Of a stretch of 64,000 nt of DNA, positions 12,315 through 30,552 are shown piece after piece. The notes below the pieces were generated by a model. It was not told where the DNA came from. It was given only the letters and a program-made list of their open reading frames with translations, and made no database searches. A program made the position numbers and the translations under genes. How positions within the stretch are numbered: the stretch's first letter is position 1; the number at the start of each line of letters is the position of its first letter. The stretch comes from Anaeromyxobacter dehalogenans 2CP-C. Lineage in GTDB: Bacteria > Myxococcota > Myxococcia > Myxococcales > Anaeromyxobacteraceae. The stretch spans positions 868,001 to 932,000 of the forward strand of contig NC_007760.1 of the NCBI RefSeq assembly GCF_000013385.1, read 5' to 3'.

Positions 12315-13301
12315 ATGGCCGACCTCGTCACCGAGTACATGGGGCTCGCGCTGCCGAGCCCGGTCGTGCTCGCCTCGTCCGCCCTGTCGAACCGGGTGGA
12401 GAACCTGCAGGCGGCGGAGGCGCACGGCGCCGGCGCGGTGGTGCTCCGCTCGCTGTTCGAGGAGCAGCTCGAGGCGCCCGGCGCGACCATCGCCGCGGCG
12501 CTCGACGGCGCGGCCTGGGCGAGCCCCGACGTGCGCGCCCACTTCCCGCCGCAGCGGGTCGGGCCGCACGAGTACCTGTCGCTCGTCGAGCGCGCCAAGC
12601 GCGCGCTGGAGATCCCGGTCATCGCCAGCCTGAACGGCTCGGCCGCCGGCGGCTGGACCGAGTTCGCCCGCGACATCGAGCAGGCCGGCGCCGACGCGCT
12701 CGAGCTGAACCTCTACGCGGTGGAGGCGGACCCGGCGGTGAGCGCGGCCGAGGTGGAGGCGCGCTACCTGGAGGCGGTCTCGGCCGTGCGCGAGGCGGTG
12801 ACCATCCCGGTGGCGGTGAAGCTCTCGCCGTACTTCACCGCGCTCGCCCACTTCTGCGCGCGGCTCGACGCGCTCGGCGTGAACGGGATCGTCCTGTTCA
12901 ACCGCTTCCTGCAGCCCGACCTGTCGCTCGAGCGCATGGCGGCGGTGCCCACCATGTCGCTCTCCACGCCGGCCGAGGCGCTCGTCCCGCTGCGCTGGAT
13001 CGGGATCCTGCACGGCCGCGTCCGGGCGCACCTCGCCGCCACCACCGGCGTGCACGACGCGCTCGGCGCGGTGAAGCAGATCCTGGCGGGCGCGCAGGTG
13101 GTGCAGGTGGCCTCGACGCTGGTCCGGCACGGGGTCCCGCAGCTCGGCAAGATCGTGGCCGGCATCGACGACTGGCTCGACCGCCGCGGCACCGCCACGC
13201 TGGACGAGCTCCGGGGCCTGCTCTCGCAGCGCGCGGTGCAGGACCCGGGCGCCTACGAGCGCGCCCAGTACGTGCACCTGATCCTCTCGCAGAACATCTG
13301 A
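12315..13301 (+). CDS. Dihydroorotate dehydrogenase-like flavoprotein
   Basis: The 328-residue protein has the class 1 dihydroorotate dehydrogenase barrel: the opening MGLALPSPVVLASSALS, IPVIASLNGSA, the DALELNLYA strand, IPVAVKLSPYF and VNGIVLFNRF. In true PyrD the DALELN region is followed by a cysteine or serine active-site loop before the KLSP strand. Here that loop reads VEADPAVSAAEVE, so pyrimidine synthesis is doubtful. Such paralogues accompany anaerobic metabolism genes in many bacteria without a proven reaction. The start is ATG 12315, with GGGGAG 4 bases upstream. Confidence 0.85.
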   Translation: MADLVTEYMGLALPSPVVLASSALSNRVENLQAAEAHGAGAVVLRSLFEEQLEAPGATIAAALDGAAWASPDVRAHFPPQRVGPHEYLSLVERAKRALEIPVIASLNGSAAGGWTEFARDIEQAGADALELNLYAVEADPAVSAAEVEARYLEAVSAVREAVTIPVAVKLSPYFTALAHFCARLDALGVNGIVLFNRFLQPDLSLERMAAVPTMSLSTPAEALVPLRWIGILHGRVRAHLAATTGVHDALGAVKQILAGAQVVQVASTLVRHGVPQLGKIVAGIDDWLDRRGTATLDELRGLLSQRAVQDPGAYERAQYVHLILSQNI

Positions 13302-26308: not shown

Positions 26309-26398
26309 CCCGCGCGCGGGCACAGGCGGGGGCGGGGCGGGCCGGGTGCTGCCGCGCCGGCCGCCGGGGGTGCTACAACGACCGGTGTGGGGGATCCC

Positions 26399-26767
26399 GT
26401 GAACGGTCGCAGCATCCTGCTCGTCGAGGACGACGACGCGATCCGCGAGAGCGTGGCCGAGTGCCTCGACGCCGAGGGCTACACGGTCGCGATGGTGGAG
26501 AACGGCGTCGCCGGCCTCGAGTGGCTGCACCGGTCCGCGCCGCCGGACCTGGTGGTGCTCGACCTCGTGATGCCGGTGATGAACGGCGCGCAGTTCCTGG
26601 AGACCCTCCGCGCCGACCCGGCGCTGCGGGACCTGCCGGTGGTGCTCATGACGGCCGCGCTGCCGTCGGAGCAGCTCCCGGTGCCGGTGGCGGACGGGTA
26701 CCTCACGAAGCCGTTCGAGCTGGATCAGCTCCTCGAGACCGTGGCCCGCCACGCGCGGCGCCCGTGA
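26399..26767 (+). CDS. Single-domain response regulator (receiver only)
   Basis: The 122-residue protein is a lone CheY-like receiver: acidic pair in LVEDDDAIRE, phospho-acceptor Asp in LVVLDLVMPVMNG, Thr in LMTAA, and Lys in YLTKPF. It has no output domain, so it works by protein contact or phosphotransfer. No kinase is adjacent; the soluble histidine kinase at 6174 is one unlinked candidate. GTG 26399 is chosen for GGGGGA 4 bases upstream; GTG 26387, four codons earlier, is the alternative. Confidence 0.9.
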   Translation: MNGRSILLVEDDDAIRESVAECLDAEGYTVAMVENGVAGLEWLHRSAPPDLVVLDLVMPVMNGAQFLETLRADPALRDLPVVLMTAALPSEQLPVPVADGYLTKPFELDQLLETVARHARRP

Positions 26768-27883: not shown

Positions 27884-29236
27884 TCAGGCCTCGGGCCCGG
27901 CCGCCCCGTCGCCCTGGCCGGCGCCCGCGCTCGCCTCGCCGGGCGGCGGCGGCACGAGCCGCACCCGCCGCACCACGCGCGGCGTGGCCTCCACCACCTC
28001 GGCCTCGGTGCCGTCGGCGAGCCGCAGGCGCGCGCCGCGCTCCGGCATCGCGCCGGCCACCGCGATGACCAGCCCGGCGACGGTGGTGTAGCCCTCGCCC
28101 TCGGGCAGGTCGAGGTGGAGCGCGCGGTTCACCTCGCGGATGGGCGCGTCGCCGCGCACCACCGCGGCGCCGCCGGGCTCGACCTCGTAGAGCGGCTGCG
28201 GCTCCTCGGCCTCGCCGAGGATGTCGCCGACCAGCTCCTCCACCAGGTCCTCCAGCGTGAGGATCCCGGCCATGCCGCCGTGCTCGTCCACCACCACCGC
28301 GATCTGCGAGCGCCGGCGCTGCATGTCGCGCAGCACGTGCACCGCCTTGGCGCCCTCCGGCACGAAGTGCACCGGCCGCACCAGGTCGGCGAGCACGATG
28401 AGCTCGCGCTCCCAGGCGATGGCGGCGAGGTCCTTCGCCATCACGTAGCCGATCACGTCGTCGAGCGTGCCGTCGTAGACCGGCATGCGCGCCCGGCCCT
28501 CCTCGAGCAGCAGCCGCTTCAGGTCCTCCTGGCCCGCGTCGGCGGGGAGCGCCTTCACCCGGCTGCGCGGGACCATCACGTCGCCGGCCGTGAGGTCGCG
28601 GAAGGCGAGCGCGCGCGAGGCGATCTCCGCGGTGGGCGCGTCGAGCGCGCCGGCGCGGCCGGCCTCGTCCACGAGCTGCTCCAGCTCCTCGGCGGACAGG
28701 CGCGCCTCGGCGAACGTGGTCCGGTCGCCGAACGGGCGCAGCAGCAGGTTCGACGACGCGGTCAGCAGCCAGACGACGGGGCGCACCAGGTGCGAGAGGC
28801 CGAGCAGCGGCCGGCCGACGAGCAGCGCGTAGCGCTCGGGCGCGCGGAGCGCGAGCGACTTGGGCACCAGCTCGCCGAGGACCAGCGACAGGAAGGAGAC
28901 GAGCGCGACCACGAGCGCCAGCGAGAGCTGGTGCGCGTAGGGCGCGAGCGGCGGGATCCGCTCGAGCACCGGGGCGAGCCGGCCGGCGATCGACGCGCCG
29001 CCGAACGCCGCGGCGCTCGCGCCGATGACGGTGATGCCGACCTGCACCGTGGCGAGGAAGCGCTCGGGTGCGTCGCGGAGCCGCAGCACCGCGCCCGCGG
29101 CGGCGCGGCCCTGCTCCACGAGCTGGGCGAGCCGCGTCTTGCGCATCGCGATGACCGCGATCTCCGCGCCGGCGAAGACGCCGTTCGCGACGACCAGGGC
29201 CAGGACGATCAGGATCTCGACGGCTGTGTCGTACAG
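27884..29236 (-). CDS. CorC/HlyC-type CNNM-CBS membrane protein with probable CTG start
   Basis: The 450-residue protein has the UPF0053 layout: a CNNM membrane domain (about 1-150), a CBS pair (about 195-310) and a CorC_HlyC domain (about 335-420). Members are linked to magnesium/cobalt efflux and ion homeostasis. The first conventional start, ATG 29146, would cut away the first membrane helix. Reading on upstream in frame gives EILIVLALVVANGVFAGAEI, the exact kind of opening this family has. The only suitable start is CTG 29236, with GGGGAGGG at 29245-29252, 8 bases upstream. There is no in-frame ATG, GTG or TTG between. Confidence 0.82.
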   Translation of the reverse strand: MYDTAVEILIVLALVVANGVFAGAEIAVIAMRKTRLAQLVEQGRAAAGAVLRLRDAPERFLATVQVGITVIGASAAAFGGASIAGRLAPVLERIPPLAPYAHQLSLALVVALVSFLSLVLGELVPKSLALRAPERYALLVGRPLLGLSHLVRPVVWLLTASSNLLLRPFGDRTTFAEARLSAEELEQLVDEAGRAGALDAPTAEIASRALAFRDLTAGDVMVPRSRVKALPADAGQEDLKRLLLEEGRARMPVYDGTLDDVIGYVMAKDLAAIAWERELIVLADLVRPVHFVPEGAKAVHVLRDMQRRRSQIAVVVDEHGGMAGILTLEDLVEELVGDILGEAEEPQPLYEVEPGGAAVVRGDAPIREVNRALHLDLPEGEGYTTVAGLVIAVAGAMPERGARLRLADGTEAEVVEATPRVVRRVRLVPPPPGEASAGAGQGDGAAGPEA

Positions 29237-29357
29237 GTGGCGTTCCCTCCCCGGGGTGGCCGCGCCGGGGCCCCCGCCGCTCGACTCGGCGACCGCGCCC
29301 GCGCGCGGCCGCGCAGGCGGTCGCCCTCCGCCCGGGCGGGGACTCCCCGCCAGCGGA

Positions 29358-29369
29358 GAAGAGGTTTAC
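29358..29369 (+). promoter_or_regulatory. 12-base element GAAGAGGTTTAC, copy 1
   Basis: This AT-containing 12-mer lies 56 bases before the nitroreductase-like start and recurs exactly at 50801-50812, ahead of the alternative complex III operon. In both places GCGG precedes it by one base. It may be part of a promoter or an activator site; function is inferred only from repetition and position. Confidence 0.35.
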
Positions 29370-29424
29370 CTGAAACGCTCCCGCAGCGCCGCAGCCCCGT
29401 GTGCCCGTGTTCCGGGAGGGACCC

Positions 29425-30552
29425 ATGTTCGTCGATGCGCAGGCGCTCCCCGCGCCGGATCCGCGGGGCTTCCCGTCATGGGGCGGCCCCGCCGACCGGC
29501 TCCGGTTCCTGCTCGCGTACGCCGTGCTCGCGCCCTCGCGGCACAACACGCAGCCGTGGTGGTTCGAGGTGCGCGGCGACGAGGTCGGCCTCCACGCCGA
29601 CGGCGCGCGCGCGCTGCCGGAGGTGGACCCGGACGGCCGCGAGCTGGTGATGGCCTGCGGCGCGGCCCTCGCGAACCTGCGCCTCGCCGCGGCGCACTTC
29701 GGCCACGCGACCTCGGCCGAGATCATCGGCACGCACCGGCGCGACGGGCTGGTGGCGCGCGTGCGGCTCGAGGAGCAGCGCGCGCTCTCGCCCGAGGACG
29801 AGGAGCTGTTCCAGGCCATCCCGCGCCGCCGCACCAACCGGCTGCCGCTCGACGGCCGCGAGCCGCCGGAGGGCCTGGTCACGCGGCTGCTGCGCGAGGC
29901 GCGCGCGGAGGGCGCCTGGCTGCGCCCGGTGGAGTCGCACCAGCGCCGCGCCGTGGCCGAGCTGGTCGCGGAGGGCGATCGCCGGCAGTGGGCGAACCCG
30001 CGCTTCCGCGCCGAGCTGGCCGGCTGGATCCACCCGAGCGGCAGCGGCCGCCGCGACGGGATGCCGGCCTACGCGGTGGGCATGAGCGACGCCGCGGCGC
30101 GCCTGCAGCCGCTGGTGGCCCGGCTCTCCAACCCGGCCCGCGCCGAGGCCGAGCGCGACCGCCGCCGCACGCTCGCCTCCAAGGCCCTGCTCGTCCTCTC
30201 CACCGCGCGCGACGGCCTGGCCGAGTGGATGGTCGCCGGGATCGCGCTCCAGCGCATCCTGCTGCGCGCCACGGCGGCCGGCCTGACCGTGGCCTACTTC
30301 AACCAGCCGATCGAGCAGGAGGGGCTGCGCGGGCCGCTCCGCGAGGCGGTGGGCGATCCGGGCATGCCGCAGCTCCTGCTGCGGCTGGGGTACGGTCCGG
30401 AGGTGCGGGCGACGCCGCGCCGGACGGTGGACGAGGTGCTGCGCCGCCTCGACGCCGTGCCGCTCCGCCCCGCGCCGCTCGTGCTCCGTCGCGCTCCGCC
30501 GGCGTCACCTGTGGTGCAATCCGCCGCGGTCGCGCCAGGCGCGCCGGCATAG
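29425..30552 (+). CDS. Nitroreductase-like FMN-dependent protein (Acg family)
   Basis: The 375-residue protein is a double-length nitroreductase-fold protein like mycobacterial Acg. An N-terminal APSRHNTQPWWFEV supplies the FMN-contacting region; a RRRTNRLPLDGR segment lies in the middle, and a second half contains WMVAGIALQRILLRATAAGLTVAYFNQPIE. Acg-type proteins bind or sequester flavin, and some respond to hypoxia or nitric oxide. Enzymatic activity is uncertain. ATG 29425 is chosen over GTG 29401 because GGGAGGG lies 4 bases upstream. It shares the divergent region with the CorC/HlyC gene. Confidence 0.82.
   Translation: MFVDAQALPAPDPRGFPSWGGPADRLRFLLAYAVLAPSRHNTQPWWFEVRGDEVGLHADGARALPEVDPDGRELVMACGAALANLRLAAAHFGHATSAEIIGTHRRDGLVARVRLEEQRALSPEDEELFQAIPRRRTNRLPLDGREPPEGLVTRLLREARAEGAWLRPVESHQRRAVAELVAEGDRRQWANPRFRAELAGWIHPSGSGRRDGMPAYAVGMSDAAARLQPLVARLSNPARAEAERDRRRTLASKALLVLSTARDGLAEWMVAGIALQRILLRATAAGLTVAYFNQPIEQEGLRGPLREAVGDPGMPQLLLRLGYGPEVRATPRRTVDEVLRRLDAVPLRPAPLVLRRAPPASPVVQSAAVAPGAPA

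Follow-up and report, generated by a model that had tools for sequence, protein, structure and literature searches.

The translation start of a gene for a CNNM/CBS/CorC_HlyC membrane protein in Anaeromyxobacter dehalogenans 2CP-C is, on good support from sequence comparison, the CTG at position 29236 of the analysed window, a stretch of 64,000 nucleotides (G000:C1:868001-932000) in a genome assembled as one contig of 5,013,479 bases [Table 1]. An earlier note on this DNA had proposed this codon as the start, and the reading of the frame bears the proposal out: in-frame ATG, GTG and TTG codons are all absent between the TAA at 29368-29366 and the ATG at 29146, the frame above the CTG being open for the 43 codons up to that TAA, with a second in-frame CTG 39 codons upstream. 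The sequence that the note saw 8 bases upstream is likewise present, a strong Shine-Dalgarno GGGGAGGG (29252-29245), separated from CTG 29236-29234 by an 8-nt spacer of sequence AACGCCAC; the codons after the CTG read TAC GAC ACA GCC GTC GAG .... We consider it highly probable that the gene is translated from this CTG, and that a weak start which initiation factor IF3 could reject has been kept on a CNNM-CBS-CorC_HlyC protein that is a probable exporter of Mg2+ or polyamines.

Table 1. Features of the CNNM/CorC-type gene and its start site in the window.
Feature	Position	Strand	Basis
CTG, well-supported candidate start codon	29234..29236	minus	no standard start in frame upstream; CTG in 8/8 congeners holding the orthologue; residue conservation begins at the CTG
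Shine-Dalgarno sequence GGGGAGGG	29245..29252	minus	read directly; 8-nt spacer to CTG; duplex with 16S 3' end -12.2 kcal/mol
In-frame stop TAA upstream of CTG	29366..29368	minus	sequence reading
ATG of residue 31, the first in frame, taken as internal	29144..29146	minus	ATG in the two closest congeners; ATC, ATC, CTG, GTG, CTC in the other five
Residues 2-30, predicted first transmembrane helix	29147..29233	minus	model helix H2-30, block pLDDT 81-90; absent if start = ATG 29146
CNNM-CBS-CorC_HlyC membrane protein, 450 residues	27884..29236 (stop included)	minus	Pfam domains; archaeal CorB (7m1u, 7m1t) best solved matches
Inverted repeat GGCGGGG-AGT-CCCCGCC in leader	29335..29351	minus	its GAGTCCCC invariant in 8 aligned congeners

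Conservation of the CTG in Anaeromyxobacter

Eight of the nine Anaeromyxobacter genomes searched hold an orthologue (73-99% protein identity, E up to 1e-100), the ninth, without a match, being 66% complete. The check suggested in the earlier note, namely which codon relatives carry at the start site, gave CTG in all eight orthologues, each time just behind a strong Shine-Dalgarno sequence. In seven of them, codon counting from E25 makes this CTG residue 1. In A. oryzisoli (L072/L041), the eighth, it comes out as residue 2, and MAFFT places it in the same alignment columns as the CTG of the other congeners. In six of the eight, window included, the frame is closed and free of standard starts through residue 8, and in the window and in G007 through residue 25. 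Elsewhere, the frame of L067 (= L010) is open and the next ATG upstream lies at a distance of 64 codons, and L072 has a GTG at -8. The note had held that a standard start at another in-frame position in close relatives would speak against the CTG; the congeners show none, except for this GTG of L072, whose Shine-Dalgarno is the weaker (-6.9 vs -13.4 for the CTG). A sequencing error at the CTG, also raised in the note, was ruled out because independent assemblies of relatives agree on the codon.

The Shine-Dalgarno sequences of the eight congeners form duplexes of -11.8 to -13.4 kcal/mol with the 16S end, and a duplex as strong as that of the window gene occurs at 0.6% of 4000 positions drawn at random from the window. 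Ranked by Shine-Dalgarno energy alone among nearby initiator-type codons, the CTG comes first or equal first in 8/8.

Domains, predicted structure and relatives of the protein

The protein matches the CNNM domain (PF01595) with an E-value of 6.8e-45 and 153.4 bits (cut-off 28.4) over residues 9-199, from profile position 1, such that residues 9-30 of the match fall before the ATG of residue 31; CorC_HlyC (PF03471, 7.1e-16) and CBS (PF00571, 1.3e-13) also score above their Pfam cut-offs. The statement of the earlier note that a start at ATG 29146 would delete the first membrane helix agrees with the AlphaFold2 model built from 23 aligned sequences, in which residues 2-30 form one helix ending just before residue 31. 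E25, within this helix, is invariant across the 23 sequences. The mean pLDDT of the model is 79.8 and its pTM 0.39, and the packing of the domains is therefore unsure. Among solved structures the archaeal CorB proteins are the best relatives, the sequence match beginning at residue 5; the structural match of the whole chain reaches significance with a loose fit (TM-scores up to 0.35 relative to the query). There are also structural matches to the CBS domains of CorC/CNNM proteins.

The closest named relative found is Anaeromyxobacter sp. PSR-1 (L038; 99% protein identity), and a second CNNM/CorC-like locus in the same genome encodes a paralogue (L002) of 41% identity. The architecture of CNNM, CBS and CorC_HlyC domains is shared with Salmonella PaeA and CorB; according to PMC12421838, PaeA excretes polyamines, and high Mg2+ induces corC and mgpA. 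Unlike PaeA itself, the window protein scores below the curated cut-off of the PaeA model (NCBIfam NF052568; 202.6 vs 500 bits), and we therefore do not file it as PaeA; it is probably an exporter of Mg2+ or polyamines.

Probable non-standard starts across Myxococcota

An order-wide search found the orthologue in 98/145 genomes (E up to 1e-90) and a phylum-wide search, overlapping the first set, in 101/179 (1e-80). From these, 111 N-termini in 104 genomes were read, of which L074 was dropped for a run of N, leaving 110; a match in G128:C400 that starts at residue 104 had been left out of the set. Sorted by the codon at residue 4, which is the ATG position of 14 other orthologues, and by nearby standard starts, the rows comprise 69 with ATC, eight with CTG (all from Anaeromyxobacter), three with ATT and 27 with a standard start; three others have ATC at residue 4 plus a standard start within residues 1-5. 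The frame is closed and free of standard starts from the stop to residue 8 in 61 of the 80 rare-start rows (ATC 53/69, CTG 6/8, ATT 2/3). No standard start occurs up to residue 25 in 14 ATC, two CTG and zero ATT rows, the first one in these 16 falling at residue 28, 31, 50 or 70. The other 16 of the 69 ATC rows either contain a standard start no later than residue 8 or stay open throughout the stretch read, and many ATC rows carry TTG or GTG at residues 12-15. Three rows are doubtful: among those with ATC, L141, whose frame is open and whose Shine-Dalgarno is weak, and L155, which has an ATG upstream; among those with ATT, L024, which has a GTG upstream.

The ATC class is defined by its codon and its 69/69 is therefore not itself evidence; the informative figure is that of a 68-row clade of the tree (SH-aLRT 82), apart from the CTG rows, in which 66 rows have ATC, one TTG and one an ATG three codons up. 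Most ATC rows come from family f4, taken here as Myxococcaceae in the wide sense. The codons beside the start vary (Ala, Ile or Val at residue 3; Val, Ala or Leu at residue 5); the isoleucines at residues 10 and 11 are also nearly always ATC (65/69 and 64/69), so the invariance of the third position is in part codon bias. In the tree of N-terminus rows, 41/104 inner branches are open and the branch joining the CTG rows is without support. A single clade uniting the CTG rows with the ATC rows was rejected (p 1e-4) by an AU test on a quick tree of 97/110 rows, leaving out 13 long-branched or doubtful ones (four of them ATC), and the two starts are therefore probably separate developments, unless standard starts came back between them. 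The rare start is not confined to one gene or genus, the orthologue bearing ATC or ATT in other lineages.

The duplex with the 16S end has a median energy of -11.5 kcal/mol in the 80 rare-start rows vs -5.1 in 30 standard-start rows (Mann-Whitney p 5e-11, the relatedness of rows being ignored in the test); on phylogenetically independent pairs, at most 8 in number, the association of rare start and strong Shine-Dalgarno was not significant.

In L209 and L213, two distant Myxococcota, ATT occupies the same position, AGAGG or GGAGG stands six bases ahead of it, and standard starts are absent before residue 11. A frame for a response-regulator receiver (L095:481-1455) lies directly upstream of an ATC-start orthologue and another lies near the window gene (26387-26767), possibly by coincidence.

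Comparison with infC and genome-wide controls

The gene for IF3, infC, is the textbook case of a rare start codon, through which IF3 regulates its own synthesis in E. coli. Of 42 infC loci, 38 were readable, and many of the same genomes that hold the CNNM orthologue have ATC, ATT or CTG, and no ATG, at the infC start: ATC or ATT, with no ATG seen, at the f4 loci, CTG six bases after AAGGAG at two loci of genus g5, and ATC at one locus of genus g4. The window gene resembles infC of Myxococcota in these codons and differs from it in that the infC product is IF3 itself, with direct feedback, whereas its own product is a membrane protein. The infC of Anaeromyxobacter is unlike that of these related genera: at all five readable loci (L196-L198, L202, L203; eight fetched) an ATG stands directly behind CGGAGG, and an ATC follows two codons later. 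IF3 autoregulation may therefore be lost or altered in this genus, and IF3 levels may perhaps differ there.

Among 26 conserved frames of the window, the CNNM gene and the frame 12767-13252 were the only ones with coding-type conservation and no prior standard start, and the latter is outscored by a frame on the opposite strand. A comparison of 464 kb of the same genome with a congener retained 177 conserved open frames and flagged 16; we take 13 of the flagged frames to be shadows of a better-scoring overlapping frame. The other three were the CNNM gene, a formate dehydrogenase-like gene and an unclear frame (G000:C1:1234576-1237074); no other clear rare-start case turned up in the 464 kb, one frame being ambiguous, and a genome-wide habit of CTG starts was rejected with the CNNM gene left as the lone clear case. 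For a further control, 400 kb were compared between two Myxococcus-like genomes, G109 and G116, with 157 frames kept and eight flagged: four shadows, three frames with 12-codon segments only, and one (5838020) that resembles release factor 2, a gene known for its frameshift. This control was insensitive, and it overlooked the ATC gene within its own region because a TTG at residue 13 leaves the stretch too short. From these controls, rare starts of the CTG/ATC type look uncommon here, with the reservation that a gene escapes the control if TTG or GTG occurs early in its interior.

The formate dehydrogenase-like frame (G000:C1:956659-959346, minus strand) lies outside the window, has its upstream part in L263 and contains one in-frame TGA (NQARI*HSSTVPGLG), which would be read as selenocysteine if the product is a selenoprotein, as the pattern suggests.

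Competing explanations

That translation begins instead at the ATG of residue 31, or at some other standard start inside helix 1, and that the frame above it is conserved by accident, strikes us as extremely improbable. The window has the ATG at 29146, and so do the two congeners closest to it, but the codon is not ATG in the other five, a start at residue 31 would lose helix 1 together with the invariant E25, and G007 has its first standard start only at residue 70. Against the five divergent congeners (G006, G007, G002, G005, G003; G001 and G004 are too similar to the window for much weight), 1-2 of the 14 residues encoded before the CTG are identical, with changes at all codon positions, vs 19-21/29 for codons 2-30, which are conserved as well as codons 31-60 (20-24/30). 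Initiation at another non-standard codon by the CTG, or at a start in another frame with frameshifting or coupling, seems very unlikely. In G002, G005 and G007 the codon just ahead of the CTG is an ATC whose Shine-Dalgarno score equals that of the CTG, but this ATC is missing in the window, G001, G003, G004 and G006, whereas the CTG is found in all eight. Five of the seven ATC-start loci examined have, in the same orientation, an open frame of >100 codons whose end lies 27-58 nt ahead of the start, and re-initiation could therefore help there; the upstream frame at L095, the one tested, holds a response-regulator domain. In the window, however, none of the forward frames contains a stop between 80 nt upstream and about 20 nt downstream of the start, and the adjacent frame is divergent; with no gene ending close ahead of the start, coupling is unavailable there.

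The CTG could also be the true start and yet have no regulatory role, a slightly harmful codon having been fixed by drift under low demand for the protein. We hold this to be unlikely: the paralogous locus L002 could be cited in its favour, but the start is kept in all eight congeners with the gene and ATC, mostly behind a strong Shine-Dalgarno, in 66/68 rows of another clade, and a standard start is one base change away.

Discussion

In the mechanism that we favour, a weak start retained on a CNNM-type gene, CTG 29236 would be decoded by the initiator tRNA, and the protein should therefore begin with Met. The strong Shine-Dalgarno would recruit the 30S subunit to the CTG, and the poor codon would make initiation inefficient and open to rejection by IF3, a dependence that we infer. 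This weak start would have been retained while its codon changed, as CTG in Anaeromyxobacter, ATC in most rows of a related family and ATT in a few distant Myxococcota. That relatives in a large group of soil bacteria so often keep a weak start suggests that synthesis of the protein is limited or adjusted at initiation, and the lower expression that the earlier note had envisaged is plausible. According to PMC11497404, CUG makes up 0.024% of bacterial start codons and yields 0.86% of the output of AUG.

Few conserved rare starts have been characterised, according to PMC5472188. The same source describes Streptomyces sigR, whose start had been mis-annotated to a standard codon and is GTC in 32/34 cases and GTT in two, with an extensive Shine-Dalgarno (AGGAGGTG) genus-wide and measured repression by IF3. 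The window gene resembles sigR in having a genus-conserved non-standard start with an extensive Shine-Dalgarno, and differs from that actinobacterial sigma factor gene in being of membrane transporter type, in its several rare codons and in being known here from sequence. Conserved non-standard starts are also described, in PMC13009471, for ccpN (AUA; S. aureus and B. subtilis), staphylococcal cvfC1 (AUU) and S. aureus infC (AUA), with reporter activities for starts of this type of about 10-30% of AUG. The strong extended Shine-Dalgarno reported there is a further likeness to our gene, whereas those genes belong to Firmicutes, have other functions and had their starts mapped by ribosome profiling. 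Since CTG, ATC or ATT is conserved, mostly without alternatives, the CNNM gene looks like a further case of a conserved weak start repressed by IF3, a small class that includes infC and Streptomyces sigR. A literature search by paper titles returned none on a non-standard start of a CNNM/CorC gene, which is weak evidence of absence.

The weak start might, moreover, serve to sense cations, a high level of Mg2+ or polyamine in the cytosol easing acceptance of the poor codon and thereby yielding more exporter. We think this rather unlikely; it is drawn by analogy with E. coli, in which polyamines enhance initiation at UUG and GUG, PMC4405209 showing this for those codons and not for CUG or AUC, and with the induction of Salmonella corC and mgpA by high Mg2+ (PMC12421838). 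If true, exporter synthesis would rise exactly during substrate excess, by a feedback that needs neither riboswitch nor regulator and was kept in Myxococcota while the codon changed. More broadly, a genus-wide rare start, with other codons in related lineages, on a gene of cation-exporter type would tie start-codon fidelity to ion homeostasis, and gene finders limited to ATG, GTG and TTG would cut helix 1 from these proteins.

An Rfam search of positions 28900-29700 (E up to 1) returned no known RNA element in the leader of the gene. The leader inverted repeat, with its GAGTCCCC, may be a promoter, an operator or an RNA hairpin. AGGTAAACCT is present alongside the repeat, within 29335-29371.
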